Part shown: in pieces, positions 1-22,960 of the stretch
Numbering within the stretch: position 1 is the stretch's first letter
Layout of the letters: every line of letters begins with the position of its first letter
Virus record (IMG/VR): IMGVR_UViG_3300042564_000578
Span: 1-30,463 of that record
Strand: one strand, 5' to 3'
Origin: a virus
Length of the DNA: 30,463 nt
Notes under the pieces: model-generated
Databases searched by the model: none
Told to the model about the DNA's origin: nothing
The model's input: only the letters and a program-made list of their open reading frames with translations
Made by a program: the position numbers and the translations under genes

Positions 1-1932
1 GCCGAGCGCGATGCGATCAAGGCCATCTCAAAACATATCGACAGCCGTGCGTCGACCATCGCCAAGACCGAGATGCGTCCGTACCTCAACGAACTGATGA
101 ACCTGTCGATGCGCTCGTCGCAGGAGTTGTGGAACGGCAACAAGGCGGAACTGGACCGCCTCAAGAAGCAGGCCGAGACCAGTGGCACCACCACTGATCG
201 CCGCAACTACAACCGGTACAAGTACATGTTCGAGACCACCAACCCGAAGGGTGGGGCCGAGCGTGGCAACGAGTTCTACAATGAGGCGTCTCGCACCGTC
301 CAGTTCCTGAACGAGAGCCGCGATGTGTCGACCTCGAACTTCGAGTCCGGGGCTACCGCCGCCCGCCTGCGGTCCTTCGCCAGTGCCGTCCAGCTTGGTG
401 GTTCTATCGCCACGGCGGTGATGAACTTCATCGGTGTCTACACCAACGGCATCCCGTTCCTCGCCACGTACAACGACCGCAACGGCTTCGGTGGGGGCTT
501 CGGCGCTGGTGCCGCTATCTCTGAGTATCATCGCGCACTGGGTCAGGTGGGCGCACCGGGTGTCACGGACACCAAGCTGAACACCGCTGAGTTCTACGCC
601 GATATGTCTGAAGCTGACCTCAAGAAATATGGTCTGACCCGCAACGAAGCCAAGTTCATCGCCGCCGAAATCCGTGAAGGACGGATGATCCCGGCGCAGT
701 CCAACGCCCTGCTCAACACCTCGCGCGGCTATGCTGACTCGCCGTTCCTGCGGCGGTTCACCGAGGTCTGGATGGCTCCGTTCAACACGTCTGAGCAAGC
801 TGCGCGGCGTAGTCTGGGGCTGGCTGCCTTCCGTCTGGAGTTCGCCCGTCAGAAGCTGGACAAGAAGACCGACCAAGAAGCGTACGACGCAGCCAGCCGG
901 TTCGCCGCCGAGACTCTCGACGTTACCATGGGTGAGTATGGTGTGCTCAACCGTCCGCCGGCATGGCGCGGTGGCATCCAGACAATTCTGTACATGTACA
1001 AGGTCTACCCGACCACGGCGATCCAGTTGCTGGCCAACATGGATCGCAAGGGCCAGATCGCCATGCTGTTCATGCTGCTCCTGTTTTCCGGTTTGCAGGG
1101 GCTGCCGTTCGCTGAGGACCTAGAAGATATCGTGGACACCATCGCGCAGGCACTGGGCCTGACGATGGGCAGCATCCGCGCCGAAGGCACCAAGATGCTG
1201 GAGAGCGCCCTGCCGGGCGCGTCGGTGCCGCTGATGCAGGGTGTGATGAACATGGTCCTGCCGGTGGACATCGGGGCCAAGCTGTCGCTGGGCGGTCAGA
1301 TTCCCGGTACTGGCATCCTGCTGGCTGGTGCCGACGTGACGCGCGAACTCCAAGATATCGCTGGGCCTATGCCTGCTGCCATCATCCAGTCTGGGAAGAC
1401 GGTATACAACGCACTGCGGCTGCCGTTCTCGGATCAGGTGAGGCTGCCGGATGTGCTGCGCGAGACGCCGGTCACGATGCTCCGCGCCCTTGGTGACACC
1501 ATGGCCTACGCTGAGAGCGGGATGGTCGTCGATAAGCGTGGCTATACCGTCACGGGCGAAGCTACCATCGGCACGTTCGCCGCCCGCCTGACTGGGTTCC
1601 AGCCGCCGGAGACGGCGCAGCAGTACGCGGCTATCCGTGTGGCCAACCGGATCACAGACTACCGTAGAGATACCGTCACGATGTACCGCACCGCGTGGGT
1701 CCGGGCCAAGATGGCTGGCGACAACGACGCCGCACGAGACATCGAGAAGGCCGTGGCCAAGTGGAACGAGGGTGCTGCGGGTACCGGGCTGCGGATAAAC
1801 AACTTCTCGCAGGGGAACCAGCGCGCACTCAGGGAAGCGAAGCGTCCCGCCGGTGAGCGGGCGCTTCGTACAACCCCGATGGACAACCGCGAAGACATCG
1901 CGGCGATCTACGATATGATGGGGGCTACTTAA
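1..1932 (+). CDS. C-terminal part of a giant virion protein (PLxRFG-type), 5'-truncated by the window
   Basis: The frame is open from base 1 (it reads AERDAIKAIS... before the first ATG at 73), so this is the 3' part of a longer gene; 643 residues are visible. The product is mostly hydrophilic and helical, with one strongly hydrophobic stretch near codons 357-369 (IAMLFMLLLFSG). The end contains a run rich in R, A and P (KRPAGERALRTTP). That ending, and the position at the end of the late operon, resemble the very large (often over 2000 residues) internal or ejected virion proteins annotated as PLxRFG-domain proteins in podoviruses. I infer a structural, possibly DNA-ejection role; no catalytic motif is visible. 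It ends 8 bp inside the convergent primase-helicase gene, with no terminator between them. Confidence 0.6.
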   Translation, partial: AERDAIKAISKHIDSRASTIAKTEMRPYLNELMNLSMRSSQELWNGNKAELDRLKKQAETSGTTTDRRNYNRYKYMFETTNPKGGAERGNEFYNEASRTVQFLNESRDVSTSNFESGATAARLRSFASAVQLGGSIATAVMNFIGVYTNGIPFLATYNDRNGFGGGFGAGAAISEYHRALGQVGAPGVTDTKLNTAEFYADMSEADLKKYGLTRNEAKFIAAEIREGRMIPAQSNALLNTSRGYADSPFLRRFTEVWMAPFNTSEQAARRSLGLAAFRLEFARQKLDKKTDQEAYDAASRFAAETLDVTMGEYGVLNRPPAWRGGIQTILYMYKVYPTTAIQLLANMDRKGQIAMLFMLLLFSGLQGLPFAEDLEDIVDTIAQALGLTMGSIRAEGTKMLESALPGASVPLMQGVMNMVLPVDIGAKLSLGGQIPGTGILLAGADVTRELQDIAGPMPAAIIQSGKTVYNALRLPFSDQVRLPDVLRETPVTMLRALGDTMAYAESGMVVDKRGYTVTGEATIGTFAARLTGFQPPETAQQYAAIRVANRITDYRRDTVTMYRTAWVRAKMAGDNDAARDIEKAVAKWNEGAAGTGLRINNFSQGNQRALREAKRPAGERALRTTPMDNREDIAAIYDMMGAT

Positions 1933-4789
1933 CCACCGTCAGTCGCTTGAAGGCGTCTGTCTCGAAGGCGTTCTCTGCCTCGTCGAGTATGCCCTTCAGC
2001 CTGTCGTGGGATAGGTTCAGGCGGACCACGTATGACTGGCCCATCTTGATGTCGGTGTCGCGGGAGAGGTATGCCTTGTCACCACGGATCGGCATGACGA
2101 TGTTGTCAGCCTTGAACTGGCTCATCATACCACGGTAGTCGCCGGCGTTGATCGCAAGCCACTTGCGGAAGTGTGCCCTGTCGACGGTCACTGTGCCTGT
2201 GCTGAACGGCACAGTCGGCCCGCTCCTGTACATATCGTAGCGGATGCGGACTTCCTCCCGTGGCATACGATTCAAGATCGGCACCGGTGGGTTCGCCCCT
2301 GTGTGCATCATCGTCAGCGCGTACTTGGTGTTGTCGTTCAGGTACGCTGACAGGACATCGAAGCTGTCCATGGTGTTATCGGTCAGCGCCTGACGGTTGA
2401 CCCCAAGCTGCTCCAGTACCCACATCAGTGATGGCTCATGGTCGAAGTCGATCAGTCCGATCTCACTGGCCATTGTCAGCGCCAAGTCCACCAGTACGAG
2501 GGTGGTCTCCCAGAACCGTTCCTCACCGTTGAACGTCGCCCCGTGGTAGCGACTTGAGAACGTCTCCGTGGCTTCTTTGATCCGCCGCTTGATCTCGTCT
2601 GGCCCCAACTCCAGCAGGTACTTGGCAAACTCAGGGCCAGCCAGCCCGTAGTTGCTGTTCACAAACTGGTATATCTTCCGGCCAAGGTCGGTGCTCTGTG
2701 TGAACAGGGGGTGCCGGGGCAGGTCCAACTCCAGCAGGCGCAGGCTCTGCGCGTTCGTGGCGCTGCTGACAGCCGACAGCTTGGTCGAGAGCGGGATGTT
2801 GGTGGACACCGAGGTCATCGAGGACCACGTCTTGGTCTCCCGTTCCTCCGCCGAGCGCGTCAGTCGGGTCTTATCCCGGCCCTGCGTAACCATGTACAGG
2901 AAGTCACCGATCTCTTTATCCGAGATGACCGTCGCTTCGTCGATGGACATGGGCAGGTGGCAGTAGAGACCGAGCCGGTTGTACAGAGCGTTCTGTGTGA
3001 ACTTGGCAGAGAAGTGGACCTTGTCCGGGTTGCCCCAGATCGACTGCTTCACAAGCTGTGCCAGCGTCTTACCCGCGCCGCTCGGCCCAGACAGGGCGAT
3101 GGTCACACCGTTGAGACCGGTCAGGTTCAGCATCGGTGAGGCGAACCCAACACCCAGCATGAACACATGCGCCGGCATGTTGGCCTGTGCAAACACCCGC
3201 ACGAACTTGGTCCAGTCGGACAGGCTACCCTGTGAGCAGAACAGATCGCCTGAAAGGCGGGCCGTCGACGAGGCAAGGGAGATTTGTTCCTGTGTGATAG
3301 CGCCATCGTCGCCCTTGGTGAAGACCGTGGTGCCCAGTACGAAGTGGCGGTAGTCCTCCTTGAACCCCATGCTGTTGTAGATGTTGGTCATCGCGCGCAT
3401 CTGGCGCAGGTTGTCCATGTATGAGCGCAGCATAAACTGGAAACTTTCTGTCTGAGTCTTCGTCTTCAGCACGATCCCTTGGTCAGCGATGTCGGTGGTA
3501 AACTCTCGGCTCTTGGTGTCAGTGAGGTGCGCCTGTCGCAGCACCAGTTCACACCACCCACGGTGGGGGCGCTTCCAGTGGTAGCGCACGATCTCATAGC
3601 CGAGGTTATCGTCCCGCCCGTAACCAACTGGGTAGATGTCGTAGGGGGAGATGACGATGTCGGTGCCTTCAGTGGTCTGGACAATGCCAGCGGCAGTGCG
3701 CTTGAACGGGCGCGGCAGCGGTACCTCACTGGCCACTGGGTCCTTAACGTCGGCGGCGACTTCCACCTCTGCGTACTTGGTACCAAGCTGGGTCGGGGTG
3801 GTGATCTTGTTGGCGAACTTGCAGTTCGCGCAGCCCTTCGGTCGCTCGGTCCTGAACTTATCGCAGGTCGCCGGTCCGGTGGTCACTGATCGCCACTGGT
3901 CCATCTTCTTGATGGTGGTGGCGTAGCTATAGTCCGGGTGGTTCTGTGACCACGCTACAGCCGTAGCCTCCGGGTCTTCGCAGTGAGCAGCGACACCCAG
4001 CAGGGCGTACCAGAACGGCTCCTCGACATCGCCTTGGTTCTCGGTGGCCCACTTGATCTGGGCGCACTTCTCCACCAGCACGGCGGGGTCGGACGGAGGG
4101 AACTCGACCTCGACAGCAAGGGCTTGTGACAACTTACTTGTGGGTGTTTGCTGTCGGGAGGTAGGGGGTAGAATACTCGGCGTCGACAAAGTGTACCCTG
4201 TGAGCGCCGCCCGCAGGGTGTCGGGGTGAACCGCCGGCGCGTCGATCAGCGCCTTCACGGTGTTGCCGCCCTTGGGGTTGATGGTGCCCACGATCCGTAG
4301 CAGTCGTGCGCTGTCGCCCGGTACGGACCGGTCGATGTAGAAGTCCTTGGCGATAGCCGCGCCCTTCATGGCGTTGGCCAGTGGCTGCCACTCAGCCGGC
4401 TCCAGTTCGTCCGTCAGGGTCCAGTAGACGTGCAGCCCGTTGCCTGAGTCGATGACCGTCGGCTTGGGTAGGGACATCTCGGAGACGAACGACAGCAGGG
4501 CTTGCAGTCCCTCACGCTTGCCGGGGTATGGCTTCTTGGGGCCGCAGTCTACGTCGAGCGCGACCAGCTTTGTGACTCGTGTGTTGGCCTGAGTCCGCTC
4601 GGAGCCATCGTTCATGGCCGACACGGTGTAGTAGACGTTGCCACCACGTGCGCTGGCGTCCAGCGCCCAATCACTCAGGTCCTCGATGGTGTGGAAGAAC
4701 GCATGGCGCATCCCGAAGGACGACAACTGCGCGCCGACATACACTCCTTGTGCCGGCAGAACTTTGTACAGAAATGTATTGGTGTCCAT
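1925..4789 (-). CDS. AEP-type primase fused to a DUF927-like SF3/AAA helicase
   Basis: This 954-residue protein probably primes and unwinds DNA at the phage fork. The N-terminal part has the three marks of archaeo-eukaryotic primases: an acidic DVDCG at about 79-83 (metal-binding DxD), GLHVYW at 118-123 (the sxH motif) and a basic RLLRIVGT at 162-169. A middle region (about 235-330) has C309, C320 and C323 and may be a PriCT-like and zinc-binding linker. The C-terminal half has a Walker A, GPSGAGKT (568-575), and a Walker B-like LPMSIDEA (612-619), as in DUF927/D5-like helicases. It is the last gene of the leftward block. Its start codon directly follows a hairpin (4795-4809) that would cover the GGGGA ribosome-binding site. 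Function is inferred from motifs. Confidence 0.85.
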   Translation of the reverse strand: MDTNTFLYKVLPAQGVYVGAQLSSFGMRHAFFHTIEDLSDWALDASARGGNVYYTVSAMNDGSERTQANTRVTKLVALDVDCGPKKPYPGKREGLQALLSFVSEMSLPKPTVIDSGNGLHVYWTLTDELEPAEWQPLANAMKGAAIAKDFYIDRSVPGDSARLLRIVGTINPKGGNTVKALIDAPAVHPDTLRAALTGYTLSTPSILPPTSRQQTPTSKLSQALAVEVEFPPSDPAVLVEKCAQIKWATENQGDVEEPFWYALLGVAAHCEDPEATAVAWSQNHPDYSYATTIKKMDQWRSVTTGPATCDKFRTERPKGCANCKFANKITTPTQLGTKYAEVEVAADVKDPVASEVPLPRPFKRTAAGIVQTTEGTDIVISPYDIYPVGYGRDDNLGYEIVRYHWKRPHRGWCELVLRQAHLTDTKSREFTTDIADQGIVLKTKTQTESFQFMLRSYMDNLRQMRAMTNIYNSMGFKEDYRHFVLGTTVFTKGDDGAITQEQISLASSTARLSGDLFCSQGSLSDWTKFVRVFAQANMPAHVFMLGVGFASPMLNLTGLNGVTIALSGPSGAGKTLAQLVKQSIWGNPDKVHFSAKFTQNALYNRLGLYCHLPMSIDEATVISDKEIGDFLYMVTQGRDKTRLTRSAEERETKTWSSMTSVSTNIPLSTKLSAVSSATNAQSLRLLELDLPRHPLFTQSTDLGRKIYQFVNSNYGLAGPEFAKYLLELGPDEIKRRIKEATETFSSRYHGATFNGEERFWETTLVLVDLALTMASEIGLIDFDHEPSLMWVLEQLGVNRQALTDNTMDSFDVLSAYLNDNTKYALTMMHTGANPPVPILNRMPREEVRIRYDMYRSGPTVPFSTGTVTVDRAHFRKWLAINAGDYRGMMSQFKADNIVMPIRGDKAYLSRDTDIKMGQSYVVRLNLSHDRLKGILDEAENAFETDAFKRLTVVK

Positions 4790-4840: not shown

Positions 4841-5128
4841 TTATTGCTGGTTCAGAAGCGCGATGACCATCTCCCTTCGCTTCTTCTGATCCGCTGCCAT
4901 CGCCTCCGGTGTTGGCCACGAGTGATCCGTGACCAAGGAAAGGAGCCGTTTTAGCATGTCCCGTACCGCTTCGTCATTGCTTTTGCGAAGCGGGGTTCCC
5001 TTGAGCCACCCGTAGTAGGTGGCTCGTGAGACTCCGAACAGGTGTGCGATGTCACCGACGGACAACAGCATACGCCGCCGCATCCAGTCGATCTTCGCAA
5101 AGTCGAGGGGTTGCGGATCACTCGTCAT
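4841..5128 (-). CDS. Small helix-turn-helix DNA-binding protein
   Basis: This 95-residue protein contains a segment at about residues 21-45 (LLSVGDIAHLFGVSRATYYG) that reads as a canonical helix-turn-helix: DIAHLFGVS is the first helix and turn, and RATYYGWL the recognition helix. The rest is charged and helical. It is likely a phage transcription regulator or a replication accessory protein. Its ATG lies 11 bp inside the end of the SSB-like gene, so it is probably translated by coupling; no good independent Shine-Dalgarno is seen. It sits between the SSB-like and primase genes. Operator sites are not evident here; the decamer cluster at 20815-21532 is one candidate target. Confidence 0.7.
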   Translation of the reverse strand: MTSDPQPLDFAKIDWMRRRMLLSVGDIAHLFGVSRATYYGWLKGTPLRKSNDEAVRDMLKRLLSLVTDHSWPTPEAMAADQKKRREMVIALLNQQ

Positions 5129-11886: not shown

Positions 11887-12185
11887 CCTGCATATCCCCT
11901 ATAGTCAGTGACAGACAGCCAGCCGTTGCGCTTGGCAGCGGTGCGGTATGCCTTCTCGAACTCACGTGTGGCCCTCACATCACGGGTGCTGTCGGTGTCG
12001 ACACGTCCACCGAGTGATGCCTTGTCCCTCGTCATCTCAAGGCCGAGCGTCTGTGCCCTGCGGTACAGGCTGGACTCGGTGGTGTTCATCTCACGTGCTG
12101 CCTCATGCCGCTTCATCACTGGCCAGATTTGTTTGAGCTTCTCGTCCATCTCTGGTGTCCACTGTACGATCACACCCTTCGCCAC
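11883..12185 (-). CDS. SANT/GcrA-like helix-turn-helix protein
   Basis: This 100-residue protein opens with a tryptophan-anchored helix pattern, WTPEMDEKLKQIWP, followed by AAREMNTTESSLYRRAQTLGL. That resembles SANT/Myb-like and GcrA-type DNA-binding heads (WT.E....L..LW...S...IA..L...T..AV..R...LGL). It is likely a small transcription regulator. The start is a GTG at 12185 supported by AAGGAGG eight bases upstream. This start makes the gene overlap the end of the DnaA domain IV-like gene by 83 bp, unusually long for this block. An internal ATG at codon 13 lacks such a signal. Confidence 0.65.
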   Translation of the reverse strand: MAKGVIVQWTPEMDEKLKQIWPVMKRHEAAREMNTTESSLYRRAQTLGLEMTRDKASLGGRVDTDSTRDVRATREFEKAYRTAAKRNGWLSVTDYRGYAG

Positions 12186-12495
12186 TGTCAGTCCCTCCTT
12201 CGTTAAATATCAACCGCCTCAGTACCCCACACAGGTCGCGGAACGCTGAGTGGTTCTCGCGCAGGATCACAGCCTGCTTCACCCCGTGCATGATGGTGGT
12301 GTGGTGCTTGCCCAGCAGCCTACCGATGGCAGAGTAAGACATCCCTCCGTCCCACAGAGCGAACATCAGCGCCTGTCTTGCCTCCACCACGGTGCGGCTG
12401 CGGCCTTTGCCCCTCAATGTATAGTCCGCGACACCCGTCAGCAGAAAGGTATACCGGAACGCACGAGCCTTCAGTCCTATGACATCGAGGGGCAT
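12103..12495 (-). CDS. Stand-alone DnaA domain IV-like DNA-binding protein
   Basis: The 130-residue protein carries a segment matching the DNA-binding domain IV of the bacterial initiator DnaA: RTVVEARQALMFAL (34-47), then YSAIGRLLGKHHTTIMHG (54-71). In DnaA the equivalent is a helix-turn-helix ending in (D/R)HTT, which reads the DnaA box; here it is HHTT (64-67). There is no AAA+ domain, so it can bind but not remodel DNA. I infer a phage replication or transcription regulator that could bind DnaA-box-like sites. The start follows the Nmad5-like stop by four bases (TGACACCATG), with no separate ribosome-binding site. Confidence 0.8.
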   Translation of the reverse strand: MPLDVIGLKARAFRYTFLLTGVADYTLRGKGRSRTVVEARQALMFALWDGGMSYSAIGRLLGKHHTTIMHGVKQAVILRENHSAFRDLCGVLRRLIFNEGGTDSGEGCDRTVDTRDGREAQTNLASDEAA

Positions 12496-12499
12496 GGTG

Positions 12500-13144
12500 T
12501 CAGGACCCGCCCAGCAGCTTGCGTACAGTGAGGGTGGCGGTCATCGAGGAGAGGTCGATGCCATCCAGTGCAACCTCCTTCTTCTCCCGCTTGGTCACGT
12601 CCTTGTGCTTCTCCTTCACATCGTCGGGCAGCAGGTCCCACAGCGGGGGCCAAGCCTTCAGTGCCGGGGCCAGTGAGGAGTACGCACCGAGAAGTTTCTC
12701 CAAGTTTCGCCGGAACGCCTTGCGTTGTGAGTCGATAGTATTCAGCGTGTCGACCCACGCCGTGACCTCACCGACCAGCCCATCCCAGTGCGGGACAGGA
12801 CGCAGCTTGATGAAGCGAGCGTCCCACGACGCAGACCCTTCGATCAGGGCGTTGTCGGGTAACACGGCGGGCACCGGCATCCTCTGCGGCAGTGACATAG
12901 TGATATCACGGTGGCCATCACCAACAGGGACACGCACGTTGAGGCTCAGTGTGTGCTGGAAAGCATACTCAGGCAGCGACTTCACGGTGCTGGCATGTTC
13001 CATCCAGAGCGCACCCCACACCGCCTCACCGTAGTGGTCGAACGACGCCGCAGTTCTGGCTTTGTCGTACTGTTGGCTGAACGGTAGATCACCGAGTCGG
13101 ACCAAGCGTTCGGACAGTTCCTTAGTTATACGTACAGTCGCCAT
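12500..13144 (-). CDS. Nmad5-like protein (putative nucleotide-modification-associated)
   Basis: The 214-residue protein starts MATVRITKELSERL and ends with an AWPPLWDLLPDDVKEKHK-type segment. This shape resembles the Nmad5 family, which is associated by gene neighbourhood with DNA-modifying phages. The similarity is from memory of the family pattern and is not certain. No methyltransferase or glycosyltransferase motif is present. The start at 13144 has GGAGG nine bases upstream; the ATG nine bases earlier (13153) directly abuts that GGAGG and so is less likely. A second, divergent protein of similar layout is at 17999-18598. Confidence 0.5.
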   Translation of the reverse strand: MATVRITKELSERLVRLGDLPFSQQYDKARTAASFDHYGEAVWGALWMEHASTVKSLPEYAFQHTLSLNVRVPVGDGHRDITMSLPQRMPVPAVLPDNALIEGSASWDARFIKLRPVPHWDGLVGEVTAWVDTLNTIDSQRKAFRRNLEKLLGAYSSLAPALKAWPPLWDLLPDDVKEKHKDVTKREKKEVALDGIDLSSMTATLTVRKLLGGS

Positions 13145-13367
13145 TGGTTTCATCCTCCATCATCGCAAGCATTGTTGTGTATATCCCGGCAGCAAACTCC
13201 CGGTTATCCACCGGGAGTTCATCTCCTATGCTGCTGAGTATCTGGCAGAAGGCTGTCACAATATCTCTGACTGTGTAGCCGTCTACTATCTCCCCTACCT
13301 CATCAACTAACTCGTTGATCTTCTTGCAGTAGTCACACTCACACACACCGTGGTCTACTACTTCCAT
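13122..13367 (-). CDS. Hypothetical 81-residue Cys-motif protein
   Basis: A short acidic protein with an N-terminal CECDYCKK (C-x-C-x2-C) that could hold a metal, then a helical region (INELVDEVGEIVDGYTVRDI). It overlaps the VWA gene by 10 bp and the Nmad5-like gene by 23 bp, so it is tightly fitted in the operon. GAGG lies seven bases before the ATG. No family is recognised. Confidence 0.55.
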   Translation of the reverse strand: MEVVDHGVCECDYCKKINELVDEVGEIVDGYTVRDIVTAFCQILSSIGDELPVDNREFAAGIYTTMLAMMEDETNGDCTYN

Positions 13368-16977: not shown

Positions 16978-17193
16978 TTATGCTTTGTAAGTTGTGCTTC
17001 GACCGCCGCCGTCGCCGTTGCCGTAGCCGCCGCCGTAGCCGTAGCCGCCGCCGTAGCCGCCGCCGTAGCCGTAGCCGCCGCCGTAGCCGCCGCCGTCGCC
17101 GTAGCCGTTGCCGTAGCCGATGCCGTAGCCGTTGCCGTTGCCGGGTAAGGTTCGGGCTGGTGCAAGCCGTAGGCTCCAGAGGATCACGGCCAT
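16978..17193 (-). CDS. Gly/Tyr-repeat low-complexity protein (copy 1)
   Basis: The 71-residue product begins MAVILWSLRLAPART and then becomes a Gly-X repeat where X is Y, N, D, G or I, ending RSTTYKA. The DNA is a GGCNNC hexamer array. I prefer this frame because its start overlaps the stop of the upstream gene in the same way as copy 2, and because both copies end at a conserved position (GCATAA, GCATAG) after similar Tyr-containing tails. No good ribosome-binding site is seen; coupling is likely. The repeat should be disordered and could self-associate. Function is unknown, and expression is unproven. Confidence 0.45.
   Translation of the reverse strand: MAVILWSLRLAPARTLPGNGNGYGIGYGNGYGDGGGYGGGYGYGGGYGGGYGYGGGYGNGDGGGRSTTYKA
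17007..17143. repeat. GCCGNN hexanucleotide tandem array 1
   Basis: On the plus strand the sequence is a run of GCCGTA, GCCGCC, GCCGTT, GCCGTC and GCCGAT units. On the minus strand this gives GGC-NNC codon pairs, coding Gly-X. Array length changes in whole hexamers keep the frame open. Confidence 0.85.
17147..17184. repeat. 38-bp direct repeat, copy 1 (identical to 17728-17765)
   Basis: An exact 38-bp repeat of the segment at 17728-17765, 581 bp away. It starts AAGGTTCGGGCTGG and ends CTCCAGAGGAT. It encodes the shared ILWSLRLAPART start of both Gly-X proteins. Identity at every base, including silent positions, points to recent duplication or gene conversion. Confidence 0.9.
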
Positions 17194-17447: not shown

Positions 17448-17780
17448 CTATGCTTCGTAGGTCCTGCTAATGCCGCCGCCGTCGCCGTAGCCGTAGCCGA
17501 TGCCGATGCCGTAGCCGTAGCCGATGCCGATGCCGTTGCCGTAGCCGTCGCCGTAGCCGTCGCCGTCGCCGTCGCCGTGACCGTAGCCGTAGCCGATGCC
17601 GATGCCGTAGCCGTAGCCGATGCCGATGCCGTTGCCGTAGCCGTAGCCGCCGCCGCCGCCGTAGCCGTAGCCGCCATAGCCGTGACCGTTGCCGTGGCCG
17701 TTGCCGATGCCGATGCCGATGCCGGAAAAGGTTCGGGCTGGTGCAAGCCGTAGGCTCCAGAGGATGGCCGGATCAGACAT
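17448..17780 (-). CDS. Gly/Tyr-repeat low-complexity protein (copy 2)
   Basis: The 110-residue protein begins MSDPAILWSLRLAPART, followed by about 75 residues of Gly-X with X being Y, I, N, D, G or H, and ends ISRTYEA. It is a longer paralogue of copy 1. The ATG lies within the end of the upstream gene (ATGTCTGA, 8-bp overlap). A different frame with a TTG start at 17746 and a GGAG eight bases before it would give an Ala-Thr/Ser repeat, but its stop is not shared between copies. The product is likely disordered; a scaffold, condensate or adhesive role is possible but unproven. Confidence 0.45.
   Translation of the reverse strand: MSDPAILWSLRLAPARTFSGIGIGIGNGHGNGHGYGGYGYGGGGGYGYGNGIGIGYGYGIGIGYGYGHGDGDGDGYGDGYGNGIGIGYGYGIGIGYGYGDGGGISRTYEA
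17469..17723. repeat. GCCGNN hexanucleotide tandem array 2
   Basis: A longer array of the same hexamers as 17007-17143. It contains an exact 60-bp internal duplication, 17485-17544 and 17581-17640, offset by 96 bp (16 hexamers). One three-base phase break near 17670-17690 shifts the Gly-X register but keeps the reading frame. Confidence 0.9.
17728..17765. repeat. 38-bp direct repeat, copy 2 (identical to 17147-17184)
   Basis: The second copy of the exact 38-bp repeat, at the 5' end of the longer Gly-X gene. Together with the arrays it shows that the Gly-X gene was duplicated around an intervening 84-codon gene. Confidence 0.9.
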
Positions 17781-17998: not shown

Positions 17999-18598
17999 TC
18001 ACTCAGCCTTGGACTCAGGGGGCAGGCCGAACTTGGCGTTGACATCGGCAACCTGCACAGTGGGCAGCGTCCGGTCAGCCTCAGGGATGAGATCACCGAT
18101 GACAGGCATAGCCTCAGGCCACGCTGCTGCCAGCTTCTTGCCGGTGGAGCAGGTGCTCAGCACTGCCATGGCTTCACTGTATGCCGCTGCACAGAGATCA
18201 TCGAACTGCCTGTACCGCGTGGCGAAGTTCTTGATCTCCTCGGACAGCGCCTCGTCGGTGATGCCGTGTTCAGTGTAGCGACCGGCGATCTTGTACCCGT
18301 CGTGCTTGGCCTGCTCGATCCTCACCCAACGGCTATGGAGATTGCCGCCGATGTTGACCCTGTAACCGCCGGCGTTGACCGGCATACCCCTGTAGTCACT
18401 GGTCACGGTGAAGGCGTCGGGGAAGTGTTTGTTCACCACCGCCATCGCTGCCAGCACTTCCTTGGAGTAGAGGTAGGCATAGGCTCGGTCAGCCAGCTTG
18501 CGGTTCAGTTGCACCAGTTCCTTGGCGTCGTTGGTGTAGCGATAGGCCACCAGTTTGCGGGCCATTTCCTCACGGATGCTGTTGGTCAGTCGGCTCAT
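17999..18598 (-). CDS. Nmad5-like protein, second divergent copy
   Basis: The 199-residue protein begins MSRLTNSIREEMARKLVAYR and has a helical middle followed by KKLAAAWPEAMPVIGDLIPE near the end. This order (RLT...IRE start, Trp-Pro followed by a Leu/Ile-Pro-Glu turn near the C-terminus) matches the shape of the protein at 12500-13144 and the Nmad5 pattern. The assignment is by pattern only. The ATG at 18598 has GGAGG seven bases upstream and overlaps the previous stop by 4 bp (ATGA); the longer open frame to 18646 is therefore not used. Confidence 0.45.
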   Translation of the reverse strand: MSRLTNSIREEMARKLVAYRYTNDAKELVQLNRKLADRAYAYLYSKEVLAAMAVVNKHFPDAFTVTSDYRGMPVNAGGYRVNIGGNLHSRWVRIEQAKHDGYKIAGRYTEHGITDEALSEEIKNFATRYRQFDDLCAAAYSEAMAVLSTCSTGKKLAAAWPEAMPVIGDLIPEADRTLPTVQVADVNAKFGLPPESKAE

Positions 18599-19836: not shown

Positions 19837-19890
19837 AGACTTCTCCATGTGTGACCTGTCTCATCAGTGTGGGATGGTCATTACCCACAG

Positions 19891-19907
19891 ACCGGCACTA
19901 GGCCGGT
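19891..19907 (-). promoter_or_regulatory. Intergenic hairpin, possible attenuator
   Basis: ACCGGC-ACTAG-GCCGGT forms a six-pair GC stem with a five-base loop in the gap after the 106-codon gene. On the minus strand it is followed by CTGTGGGT, not a U-run, so it is not an intrinsic terminator. It may mark RNA processing or attenuation. Confidence 0.25.
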
Positions 19908-19912
19908 TTCGA

Positions 19913-20233
19913 CTAGCTATGGAACGAGAAGTACCCCTCGCCATCAGGGCCACCGTCATGGTGCCAGACAGCACCCATCTGGAAAGTGATGGGGTTGTCG
20001 TTGACGTTATGGGCAGCGTGTTCTTCCCGCCAGTAGGTCGCTGTCAGTTCCGGCACATCACCGTAGACACCACCGATGATGCGGCAGTGGCGATAGCGAT
20101 CACTGGATGCAGCCCATACAGAGAGATATCCCACAGCCTCCCACAACTTCTTCCCACCACAGGTGAGATTGAGCATGGGGAGATGTTCACCGAACGACAG
20201 TTCGAGAGTGCGGTTAGCGAGGTCGGTGGTCAT
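19913..20233 (-). CDS. Hypothetical 106-residue protein
   Basis: The protein begins MTTDLANRTLELSFGEHLP and has a mixed fold with several Trp and His residues (ATYWREEHAAHN, MGAVWHHDGG). AAGGAG lies seven bases before the ATG at 20233, and that ATG overlaps the previous stop by 4 bp, so the longer frame to 20281 is not used. No known domain is visible. It is in the promoter-proximal part of the leftward block, where small host-takeover genes are common. Confidence 0.6.
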   Translation of the reverse strand: MTTDLANRTLELSFGEHLPMLNLTCGGKKLWEAVGYLSVWAASSDRYRHCRIIGGVYGDVPELTATYWREEHAAHNVNDNPITFQMGAVWHHDGGPDGEGYFSFHS

Positions 20234-20469
20234 TGAGCGGCTCCTTCGATCCACTTGAGGTTGTAAACGCTGACGTAGCACTGGTGGTAATGCTGCCGGT
20301 CGTCGTTGCCGGTGTAGATTACAGTGGCATAACCAGCAGCACCGGGCTTGCGAGGTGGGGTAGCATCATGGAGGACGTGCATCTCTCCACGGAAGTCAGT
20401 GATGGTGTCACCCTTGTTGACGGGTTCGTTGGTGGCCTTGTCGACCAGTAGCCAGTTACCGATACGCAT
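20230..20469 (-). CDS. Hypothetical 79-residue protein
   Basis: The sequence MRIGNWLLVDKATNEPVNKG, then TDFRGEMHVLHDA and GYATVIY, reads as a small beta-barrel-like domain of a type common among unassigned phage proteins. It overlaps its neighbours by 1 bp at the start (TGATG) and 4 bp at the end. No function can be assigned. Confidence 0.6.
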   Translation of the reverse strand: MRIGNWLLVDKATNEPVNKGDTITDFRGEMHVLHDATPPRKPGAAGYATVIYTGNDDRQHYHQCYVSVYNLKWIEGAAQ

Positions 20470-20777
20470 CAGAACACCTCCCGAACCAGCGGCAGAGCAA
20501 CCGGCTCAAGGCCACGATTGTAGCTGATGGACAGGTCAGTGTAGCCATTCTGACGGAGAACAGGGGTATCGAGAACGCTGAGGGTGCAGCCATTGAAGGG
20601 GCTGTCGGTGTCAATTACCAGCAGATCGTGACCAACACGCCAGTCATAGACCGCATCCTGTGACGACAGGTAGCTACGGCGGATGGTGCAGACCTTGAGG
20701 GTCTTGGTGTCAAGTTTCGAGGAACTGAACACGTTGTCACGTAGATCACTGAACGAGGTGTATACTTTCTTTGGCAT
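20469..20777 (-). CDS. Hypothetical 102-residue protein, first gene of the leftward block
   Basis: The protein begins MPKKVYTSFSDLRDNVFSS and continues with beta-rich segments (DAVYDWRVGHDLLVID, DLSISYNRGLEP). GGAGG lies five bases before the ATG at 20777, which decides against the longer frame to 20849. It is the gene nearest the leftward promoter at 20849-20877 and so is probably among the first expressed. No family is recognised. Confidence 0.6.
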   Translation of the reverse strand: MPKKVYTSFSDLRDNVFSSSKLDTKTLKVCTIRRSYLSSQDAVYDWRVGHDLLVIDTDSPFNGCTLSVLDTPVLRQNGYTDLSISYNRGLEPVALPLVREVF

Positions 20778-20810
20778 GATAGCCTCCGGTATGTGGTGGT
20801 GTGTAATCCC

Positions 20811-20824
20811 GTGTAACTTTACAC
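20811..20824 (-). promoter_or_regulatory. Palindromic operator-like site between promoter and first gene
   Basis: GTGTAA-CT-TTACAC is an exact 6+6 inverted repeat containing one AACTTTACAC decamer. It lies downstream of the predicted leftward promoter and about 34 bases before the first ATG. A protein bound here could control the leftward block. Confidence 0.4.
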
Positions 20825-20848
20825 CGGGTCGCCGCTTCGGGCCAGCCA

Positions 20849-20877
20849 AACCTAGGCCAGCCGGCCCGGCGTGTCAA
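20849..20877 (-). promoter_or_regulatory. Predicted leftward early promoter
   Basis: On the minus strand TTGACA (20877-20872), a 17-base spacer and TAGGTT (20854-20849) form a sigma70-type promoter pointing at the first leftward gene (20777). The -35 is perfect and lies inside an AACTTGACAC decamer; the -10 is weaker (3 of 6). Transcription would begin near 20842, giving a leader of about 65 bases that includes the palindrome at 20811-20824. Confidence 0.5.
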
Positions 20878-21076
20878 GTTTCGGCGCAAGCCGTTGATTT
20901 CGCTGGGTTTTTTCGTAATAGGGCTATGTAACTTTACAATCTAGTATATAATCTAGTTTCTGGGGGTGTAATCCGGAAATGAGCTAACTTGACACGGCTA
21001 AGTCATTGATATTGCTAGGTTGATCTAAATAATCTACTCGCGAAACTTAACACCACAAGTTTTTTAGGGGTTGCGT

Positions 21077-21094
21077 AACTTTACATGTAAAGTT
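21077..21094. repeat. 18-bp perfect palindrome made of two facing decamers
   Basis: AACTTTACAT facing its own complement gives a perfect 18-bp palindrome. It is the only perfect head-to-head decamer pair, in the middle of the AT-rich region, and a likely binding site for a dimer. Confidence 0.7.
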
Positions 21095-21533
21095 TCATTT
21101 TCCTAAAAACAGCAAAACATAGTATGTTCTACAAATGTTCTATGTATTAAACAGATTATCTATATTATATAGAGAATCGATTTCTGCCGGATGCCTGTGG
21201 CTTAACCCACTGTTTTTCCTTGGTAAAACGCTAACTTTACACGCTAACTTTACACTTTTTCCGCGTATCACGTGTCAAGTTACGCCTAACTTTACACACA
21301 TCCGTCGTGTCAAGTTATCGGTATACAGGGTTGTATAGTTAAGTGCTAAGTCATTGAAATTACACGATATGGGCTATAGATTTTCTAGATTATTGTAAAG
21401 TTACGGCCCCCCGACTGTATAATCGCATGATCGAGGCAGTCGATAACGGCGCTGCAACACGCGCGAGATACAGACCCCCGACGTATGGGGAGCGATAGCG
21501 ACCTCGAAACTTGACACCTGATAACTTGACACG

Positions 21534-21564
21534 AAAAAACCCCACCAGCCGAAGCCAGTGGGGT
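21534..21564 (-). terminator. Rho-independent terminator, leftward
   Basis: On the minus strand an 11-pair stem (ACCCCACTGGC with GCTGGTGGGGT, two G-T pairs) closes a TTCG loop and runs into six Ts. It ends the short leftward unit (22156-21570) before the control region, which implies that the main leftward block has its own promoter downstream. Confidence 0.85.
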
Positions 21565-21569
21565 CAGGG

Positions 21570-21647
21570 TCAGTTGGTGCCGATCCACACACCGAGGAAG
21601 AACAGGATCGTCAGTGGCATCGCTGCCAGTTCGAGTAGCTTAAGCAT
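21570..21647 (-). CDS. 25-residue membrane micropeptide
   Basis: The short reading frame gives MLKLLELAAMPLTILFFLGV followed by WIGTN, one hydrophobic helix with a charged start. GGGAG lies about six bases before the ATG, and the ATG overlaps the end of the upstream gene by 8 bp, like other coupled pairs here. The stop comes a few bases before the terminator stem. Small single-helix peptides are known as phage regulators of membrane enzymes or lysis, but no specific role can be given. Confidence 0.4.
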   Translation of the reverse strand: MLKLLELAAMPLTILFFLGVWIGTN

Positions 21648-21798
21648 GTACAACTCCCTCTACGATGTCGAACTCGTCCGGGTCCATGCCCGTGGCGTCG
21701 ACGTACTCTTGCGCTTGATGTTCAGTGGCGAACCACTTGCGGTACTCGCTCCACCCTTCGTACCAAACGACGGTGTAGCCCTTGTCATAATCAGGCAT
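21640..21798 (-). CDS. Hypothetical 52-residue acidic protein
   Basis: MPDYDKGYTVVWYEGWSEYR is followed by KWFATEHQAQEYVDATGMDP and an acidic end. It reads as a small beta-alpha domain with many Trp and Tyr residues. The frame is open further upstream, but that part lies opposite the next gene, and the ATG at 21798 fits the gene order. The ribosome-binding site is weak. Function is unknown. Confidence 0.5.
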   Translation of the reverse strand: MPDYDKGYTVVWYEGWSEYRKWFATEHQAQEYVDATGMDPDEFDIVEGVVHA

Positions 21799-21825
21799 GG
21801 TGTGCGTCCGTAGGTTAGGGGACTT

Positions 21826-21849
21826 GGGAGGCAGCTTGCGCTGCCTCCC
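21826..21849 (-). terminator. Strong hairpin after the 97-codon gene; partial terminator or processing site
   Basis: GGGAGGCAGC-TTGC-GCTGCCTCCC is a perfect 10-pair stem with a four-base loop, 13 bases after the stop of the 97-codon gene. No U-run follows on the minus strand, so full intrinsic termination is doubtful. It could reduce expression of the two smaller genes downstream or protect the mRNA end. Confidence 0.45.
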
Positions 21850-21862
21850 GTCCGTCTTTGAC

Positions 21863-22156
21863 TTAGAACTTCGGGCCGGCTGCCGTGGCAGTGGCAGCCT
21901 TGGGGGCTTCCACGTCCTTGATGGTGTAGGCGGGGATACCGCCAAAACCCATACCGAAGGCAAGATACTGGCTTGCGCCGATCACCTTGGCCTTGCGGGC
22001 CGCCGCCGATGCAGTGTCTTGGAACGCCTTCTTGGCGTCCTTCGCCGCTGCGTCAGCCTTCAGCCACGCTTCCGCCTTCTGGCGGACCGGTGCTGACATG
22101 TTCTCCAAGGGCATCTTGGTGAACTCGGCCTTCTGTTCGTTGCGCTTCATAGCCAT
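21863..22156 (-). CDS. Hypothetical 97-residue basic, Ala-rich protein
   Basis: The first 60 residues are basic and helical (RNEQKAEFTKMPLENM, then AEAWLKADAAAKDAKKAF). A glycine-rich segment AFGMGFGGIPAYT follows, then an Ala/Thr-rich tail. GGAG lies seven bases before the ATG. It opens the short leftward unit nearest the divergent boundary with the rightward genes, a position often taken by very early or highly expressed genes. The charge suggests nucleic-acid binding, but no family is recognised. Confidence 0.6.
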   Translation of the reverse strand: MAMKRNEQKAEFTKMPLENMSAPVRQKAEAWLKADAAAKDAKKAFQDTASAAARKAKVIGASQYLAFGMGFGGIPAYTIKDVEAPKAATATAAGPKF

Positions 22157-22483
22157 GGTAATGCTCCACGTTATAAAGCCCCTAGCGATGTCAAAGAGCG
22201 GGTTCGGGGCTTGTGAACCCGTCTCCCTGTCTGCGGTGCGTCGTGCGCCGCTGACCCTTTCCTTAGACCATAACCTGACGGGGAAGTCTAGTTTTGCCCG
22301 TTTCCCTAGGTAGCGGCGCTTGCCCTAAGCCGTTGCAAACGCAGGCTAAACAGTCAGGCATGGGGGGGGGTTGGACTGGAGAAAACCGACGCCCCCGGTA
22401 TGATAGTATCCCTCTCAGAACAAGACCCCAAAAAACCAAGGGGGGTATTGACCCAACCGCGCCAGTCCTGTACATACCCCCCT
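22157..22483. other. Divergent intergenic region between leftward and rightward units
   Basis: About 330 bp with no credible gene. It holds a GGGTTC/GAACCC hairpin (22200-22220), a run of nine Gs (22362-22370) and a possible rightward promoter near its end. A leftward promoter for the 97-codon gene must lie here but could not be placed with confidence. Confidence 0.5.
22448..22476 (+). promoter_or_regulatory. Possible rightward promoter before the HNH gene
   Basis: TTGACC (22448-22453), a 17-base spacer and TACATA (22471-22476) form a weak sigma70-type promoter. Transcription would start at or next to the ATG at 22484, so the mRNA could be leaderless; that fits the absence of any ribosome-binding site. 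Confidence 0.35.
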
Positions 22484-22960
22484 ATGACGAACGCAAAACA
22501 TGTGAACTTCCAAGCGTACTTTACGTACGACCACGGCACTGGTGTGCTTATCAGGCGCTCGACGGGTAAGCCCGCGTATGTCCAGTTGCGGAAGAAGAAG
22601 GACGACAGACAGCCGTACGGGGAAGTGAAGATCGAAGGCCGCAAGTACGCCGCTCATAGGGTGGTGTGGGCTGTCGTCCATGGAGAGTGGCCGGACGGGA
22701 TGCTGGACCACATCAACCGCGATACGCTCGACAATAGGATCGAGAACCTCAGGGTCGCAACCCCAGCGGTCAACGCGAAGAACAAGAGCCGCGCTAAGAA
22801 TAATACGTCTGGGCAAAACGGCATCGACTTTAGCAGCGGCGGATGGAGGGTTCGCGTCGGTACCGTGTTTGGGGGCAGATATAGCACACTCGAACTGGCT
22901 ATGAAGGTGCGCGATTTGCTGTACCGGGAGTTGGGGTACACAGACGATCACGGGGAGTAG
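22484..22960 (+). CDS. HNH homing-type endonuclease with AP2 domain
   Basis: The 158-residue protein has an N-terminal sheet region, then an HNH_3-type site: HRVVWAVVHG, DHINRDTLDNRIENLR and NAKN. It ends with an AP2-like DNA-binding segment (NTSGQNGIDFSSGGWRVRV). Such enzymes are free-standing homing endonucleases that often sit beside terminase genes. HNH proteins can also assist cos cleavage during packaging, so its place directly before the terminase genes is notable. The frame is open from 22400, but the ATG at 22484 starts the conserved domain. No Shine-Dalgarno is visible for either start. Confidence 0.85.
   Translation: MTNAKHVNFQAYFTYDHGTGVLIRRSTGKPAYVQLRKKKDDRQPYGEVKIEGRKYAAHRVVWAVVHGEWPDGMLDHINRDTLDNRIENLRVATPAVNAKNKSRAKNNTSGQNGIDFSSGGWRVRVGTVFGGRYSTLELAMKVRDLLYRELGYTDDHGE

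Follow-up and report, generated by a model that had tools for sequence, protein, structure and literature searches.

An AT-rich, decamer-iterated control region with origin-like anatomy, and its predicted HTH reader, in a lineage of uncultured phages

Results

Genomic setting

The window analysed here is the entire IMG/VR record IMGVR_UViG_3300042564_000578 (30,463 bp), a partial genome. A contig of 57,308 bp is near-identical to it (99.98% across 16 kb), and looks like a complete circular map because its ends overlap by 127 bp. The closest named phages are distant, and include Pseudomonas phage Rollin (terminase 45%), Rhizobium phage RHph_TM3_14A and Pseudomonas phage KPP25 (polymerase 37%). 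A nucleotide search of named phages with the window, and with the region 20778-21533, gave no match.

The genes left of position 20777 are transcribed leftward and encode a PolA-type DNA polymerase, a helicase, a PD-(D/E)XK exonuclease, a primase-helicase (DUF927), a MoxR-type ATPase and a VWA-like protein. Those right of 22400 are rightward and encode an HNH endonuclease, the large terminase, the portal and the major head protein. A short leftward unit of small genes is present at 21573-22156, with a terminator at its end (21538-21565). The region 20778-21533 is flanked by this terminator and by the gene that opens the long leftward operon; it is upstream of that operon, which carries the replication genes. 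The features are listed below, where A denotes the decamer, B a second repeat, and HTH95 a small protein considered further on.

Features of the window
1925-4789, minus: primase-helicase (DUF927; PHROG DNA primase/helicase)
4841-5128, minus: HTH95, 95-aa lambda-repressor-fold HTH protein, predicted reader of A
20469-20777, minus: first gene of the leftward operon, 102 aa
20707-20716, minus: A site AACTTGACAC, inside the first leftward gene
20723-20732, plus: A-like site, one mismatch, inside the first leftward gene
20778-21533, no strand: AT-rich control region without genes, origin-like; the most AT-rich part of both the window and the 57-kb relative; counterparts in about 40 relatives
20815-20824, plus: A site AACTTTACAC
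20871-20880, minus: A site AACTTGACAC
20887-20899, minus: IHF-consensus site AATCAACGGCTTG
20930-20939, plus: A site AACTTTACAA
20937-20943, minus: B core TAGATTG
20949-20955, minus: B core TAGATTA
20986-20995, plus: A site AACTTGACAC
20999-21011, minus: IHF-consensus site TATCAATGACTTA
21021-21027, minus: B core TAGATCA
21030-21036, minus: B core TAGATTA
21044-21053, plus: A site AACTTAACAC
21076-21175, no strand: 100 bp with the lowest GC content in the window (23%); candidate unwinding element
21077-21094, no strand: perfect 18-bp palindrome made of two A sites, AACTTTACATGTAAAGTT
21156-21162, minus: B core TAGATAA
21233-21242, plus: A site AACTTTACAC
21246-21255, plus: A site AACTTTACAC
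21272-21281, minus: A site AACTTGACAC
21288-21297, plus: A site AACTTTACAC
21307-21316, minus: A site AACTTGACAC
21332-21340, minus: A variant AACTATACA, the form of one clade of relatives
21347-21361, minus: IHF-like site AATTTCAATGACTTA, one mismatch
21377-21383, plus: B core TAGATTT
21386-21392, plus: B core TAGATTA
21393-21402, minus: A site AACTTTACAA
21475-21488, plus: invariant single-copy box CCCCCGACGTATGG
21508-21517, plus: A site AACTTGACAC
21523-21532, plus: A site AACTTGACAC
21538-21565, minus: intrinsic terminator-like hairpin closing the leftward small-gene unit

Several other features of these genomes were noted. The window has a clear match to the Nmad5 (nucleotide-modification-associated) domain at 17999-18598 (minus) and a weak one at 12500-13153 (minus), which suggests that the phage DNA is modified. 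A type II hammerhead ribozyme is present at 19850-19914 (minus; Rfam RF02276, 37.4 bits), and the same family was found at L025 2037-2101 and L206 6307-6371 (50-53 bits). The segments 17001-17184 and 17579-17765 are 83% identical, an apparent recent gene duplication. The near-identical 57-kb contig encodes a protein with the Major tropism determinant N-terminal domain (Mtd_N; L106 5401-6900, minus) and a conserved protein of 2426 aa without any Pfam match (L105 8808-16088, minus).

The decamer cluster

Fifteen matches to AACTTDACAC with no more than one mismatch were identified in 20778-21533, 11 of them exact, with 10 on the plus strand and five on the minus strand; the count and the mixed orientation agree with the preliminary description of this DNA. 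Dinucleotide-preserving shuffles of the region (n = 500) contained a mean of 0.26 matches and a maximum of three. Across the whole window, 17 of the 18 matches fall in 20707-21532 (2.9 expected in all), and two of these 17 sit inside the first leftward gene, just left of 20778. That the decamers are concentrated here and not in the genome at large was borne out by the 57,308-bp contig, in which all 12 exact copies of AACTTNACAC lie in one cluster.

The perfect 18-bp palindrome that had been described was confirmed at 21077-21094. The region is also, as claimed, an AT-rich outlier: its lowest-GC 100-mer (21076-21175) is 23% GC, compared with a minimum of 43% elsewhere in the window. It had been called gene-free, and no ORF within it is conserved in three or more of 12 relatives. 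The decamers and the palindrome of the preliminary description are real; it had overlooked the invariant box, the IHF-like sites and the second repeat, B.

An excess of -10 boxes at 16-17 nt from A was weak and concerned a small minority of sites. One candidate is the TTGACA of the A site at 20871-20880 (minus), which lies 17 nt from TAGGTT and may, weakly, represent a leftward promoter. A was considered as a -35 promoter element and rejected; it is not simply a -35 box, because for the majority of A sites no -10 element is found at the distance expected in a promoter. The region also differs from lambdoid operators, in which dyad-symmetric sites lie over promoters, in having one palindrome and few sites with a -10 partner.

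Conservation of the locus and its repeat families

A query with the large terminase identified 69 related loci, and a corresponding AT-rich locus was found in approximately 40 related uncultured phages. Wherever relatives had enough flanking sequence, the AT-rich stretch was found upstream of both the terminase (by 2-4 kb) and the ATPase gene (by 1-4 kb). In 12 of the 13 longer related genomes examined, no other 600 bp is as rich in AT as the locus; the exception is a contig that terminates close to it. Iterated sites were present at the locus in 36-38 of 38 non-redundant relatives.

Three families were obtained from pooled k-mers: A (ACTTGACA, ACTTTACA, ACCTTACA), the AT-rich repeat B (TAGATnnTT; TAGATTATT and its forms), and the IHF consensus WATCAANNNNTTR. 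All were enriched in the 38 non-redundant relatives, with 193 observed against 6.6 in shuffles for A, 155 against 6.2 for B, and 52 against 2.5 for the IHF consensus. Backward-read controls in the same relatives were at background for A (6 vs 5.6) and IHF (4 vs 2.9) and raised for B (36 vs 6.5), since tandem copies of B are frequent. In the first 33 loci the density of the IHF consensus inside the locus was 27 times that outside. The four spacer bases of these sites are non-random and, the label being a consensus match, it is possible that a factor other than IHF acts at them.

The substituted fraction between relatives was 0.19 for A, 0.10 for B, 0.13 for the IHF consensus and 0.31 for the remainder, in comparisons where this background includes some coding flank and the genome pairs are not independent. 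The spelling of A is mostly uniform within a genome and differs between genomes, with centres TTT/TTG, CTT, TTA or TAT, or the form CCGGTTACA. That of B is likewise genome-specific (TAGATTA, TAGATAG, TAGATTG or TAGATCG). Such concerted respelling is what sites with a co-evolving binder would be expected to show.

The 14-mer CCCCCGACGTATGG has 12 columns that are invariant across 23 divergent sequences. It is single-copy in the window; in most relatives it lies where the AT-rich region ends on the right, and in most sequences GCTATAAA precedes it. Possible roles for this box are a promoter start region and an origin element.

In relatives, A sites are found upstream of terS as well, with nearly all of them on the minus strand; some of these sites are also possible -35 boxes, with a conserved element 17 nt away. 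In the window, an HNH endonuclease gene (22400-22960, plus) occupies the spot where most relatives have these sites, and its insertion may have displaced them. In one relative, a tRNA gene lies between the control region and terS (L072 5000-5071, plus).

HTH95 as the predicted reader of the decamers

The gene for HTH95 is conserved and is located directly upstream of the primase-helicase gene, 15.6 kb away from 20778-21533. The modelled structure has a mean pLDDT of 88.6 and a lambda-repressor-like arrangement of helices. No match to solved structures passed an E-value of 0.001 and the best was 0.23; the fold assignment consequently rests on many consistent weak matches together with Pfam HTH matches. 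No distant homologue was found in Rollin, RHph_TM3_14A or KPP25, in a search run without a positive control.

To relate motif to protein, spelling was measured by simple word counts, per-genome EM motif building having proved unstable and been discarded, and was compared with four proteins: HTH95, the primase, P341 and TerS. The distance in A spelling between genomes correlated with that of the HTH segment of HTH95 (r 0.65). Partial correlations were 0.58 given the primase, 0.56 given P341, 0.63 given TerS, and 0.51 given the C-terminal half of HTH95 itself (p about 0.0005 for all, by Mantel tests that ignore phylogeny and are optimistic for related genomes). None of the primase, P341 and TerS retained a signal for A spelling once the HTH segment was accounted for.

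The covariation survived removal of the CCGGTTACA group and of genome G024; none was seen when the SR(M/V) class was taken by itself. About four recognition classes underlie the result, such as TRA helices with AACTATACA. Pairs of helix and spelling include SRA with AACTTKACAC in the window, TRA with AACTATACAC in genomes of the G009 type, and TRM/YR with CCGGTTACA in those of the G019 type. As the words that define the motifs, the CCGGTTACA class among them, were selected with the data already in view, and the p-values ignore phylogeny, the evidence linking A to HTH95 is strong and not conclusive. Because the spelling of A changes in step with its DNA-reading part, HTH95 is statistically predicted to be the protein most likely to bind the decamers.

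The primase-helicase was considered as the reader of B and rejected; the partial correlation was 0.33 (p 0.001), yet no domain stood out. TerS tracks the spelling of B nearly as well. For both reasons, the correlation of the primase with B was treated as general relatedness.

The preliminary description had linked the decamers to a DnaA domain IV-like gene. The window does encode a stand-alone HTH gene of this kind (12103-12495, minus; PF08299, E 1.9e-11), which could in principle supply a reader, as could host DnaA. However, it was detected in one of 16 records, namely the near-identical contig itself, and in no relative above the cut-off, although the repeats are general. Relatives with the repeats lack the gene, and the DnaA box TTATNCACA, an optional component of iteron origins, does not occur in the window. 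The link was not supported, and reading of the decamers by host DnaA or by the phage's domain IV-like protein is very unlikely.

The same comparisons bear on whether the region serves in packaging, as a pac or cos site that the small terminase would read. Some cos regions have iterated terminase sites and an IHF site, and the region lies 1.5-2.9 kb upstream of terS and terL. Covariation with TerS did not identify it as the reader: its partial correlation with A given HTH95 was -0.016 (p 0.57), or -0.095 for its N-terminal 70 residues, and HTH95 keeps 0.63 given TerS. Contigs also do not share an end at the locus. A packaging site is unlikely.

Origin, operator or both

The decamers and IHF sites resemble in outline the lambda attachment site, attP, in which arm-type sites are combined with IHF sites. 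A tyrosine integrase (PF00589) was found in none of 12 long relatives, in a search directed at this integrase type whose control was positive in 14 of 14 genomes. Terminase patterns identified no prophage relative in 84,980 species genomes. An attachment site is the least likely of the explanations considered.

The remaining alternative is a cluster of operators only, through which HTH95 would time early, small-gene and late transcription, with replication starting elsewhere. Phage repressors and controller proteins belong to the same fold family as HTH95, and covariation of site and protein is a known behaviour of repressor/stoperator pairs (PMC6550527). The A sites near terS in relatives, nearly all in one orientation and some at a possible -35 box, point to a transcriptional role. 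However, 15 sites of mixed orientation over 750 bp, mostly without a -10 partner, far exceed what ordinary promoter control uses, and operators alone give no account of the AT outlier, the IHF-like sites or repeat B. We regard operators alone as possible but somewhat doubtful, and as the next most likely reading.

The most likely reading, in which we place intermediate confidence on the basis of sequence comparison, is that 20778-21533 combines a replication origin with the control region of the early leftward operon, its decamers being read by HTH95. An origin is favoured because the 23%-GC outlier lies by the palindrome in the company of repeat B and IHF-like sites, and because many A sites lack a promoter partner and the predicted reader is encoded with the primase-helicase. 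Specific sites are repeated and concentrated at one locus, as in iteron origins, and the adjacent stretch at 21076-21175 (23% GC) corresponds to an unwinding element in composition, which is distinct from melting. Minima of the detrended GC skew lie within about 7 kb of the locus in seven of seven genomes; as gene orientation switches at the same place, this is not independent evidence for an origin. The preliminary proposal of "origin or master operator" was of the right class; the tests do not separate the two, and both may hold.

Discussion

In the combined reading, HTH95 would bind the decamers and assemble together with a host IHF-type bending protein. This complex would control leftward transcription and would help to open the 23%-GC stretch beside the palindrome. 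The primase-helicase, encoded right after HTH95, could then be loaded at the opened stretch, where replication would start. Repeat B would act at the same place, either in the unwinding itself or by binding a second protein. Given the A sites upstream of terS in relatives, HTH95 probably regulates the late operon too. More speculatively, a lambda-repressor-fold protein, and not a winged-helix or DnaA-like initiator, may read the iterons of a phage origin and also act as the switch from early to late expression, while another factor reads a second repeat family that evolves independently at this locus.

Relatives of HTH95 are encoded in at least 294 IMG/VR stretches, so that the phages belong to a large, uncultured and apparently undescribed lineage, which now gains a defined control locus and a named candidate binding protein. 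Because natural variants pair spellings with helices, the binding specificity is testable with short oligonucleotides and small purified proteins. Should the locus prove to be an origin, it would illustrate how replication begins in the many tailed phages that lack recognisable initiators.

Comparison with known systems

In phage P4, the origin is used by the alpha primase-helicase, and in lambda, ori is used by the O protein; both systems have iterated sites, an AT-rich segment and a primase-helicase or initiator. The present locus is similar in its iterated sites, AT-rich segment and phage primase-helicase. It differs from the P4 alpha system in that the primase tracked B no better than general relatedness would, with no primase domain standing out.

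Plasmid iteron origins (RK2, R6K, pSC101, F and P1) comprise clustered short repeats for a cognate protein and an AT-rich unwinding stretch with its own repeats, with IHF sites in some (PMC4980987). Clustered repeats, a repeat-bearing AT-rich stretch and IHF or IHF-like sites are common to these origins and to this locus. The plasmid iterons are mostly 17-22 bp, in direct orientation and bound by a winged-helix Rep, whereas the repeats here are 10 bp, mixed in orientation and irregularly spaced. The reader here, unlike Rep, is predicted to have the lambda-repressor fold, and the region is probably active as an origin, as judged from its anatomy.

In RHph_TM3_14A, neither HTH95 nor, in its AT-rich region, decamer A was found. 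That intergenic region (L085 19356-20124) is the AT minimum of the stretch examined and contains two exact IHF-consensus sites; it is AT-rich like the window's locus, and lies just upstream of early rightward genes.

Cluster A mycobacteriophages carry many asymmetric, phage-specific stoperators that diverge with an HTH protein (PMC6550527, PMC9283540). Stoperators are dispersed through the genome, mainly in one orientation, whereas the sites here form a single AT-rich cluster in both orientations, and, unlike in the Cluster A system, no tyrosine integrase was found. As with stoperators, the asymmetric sites of this locus diverge in step with an HTH protein.
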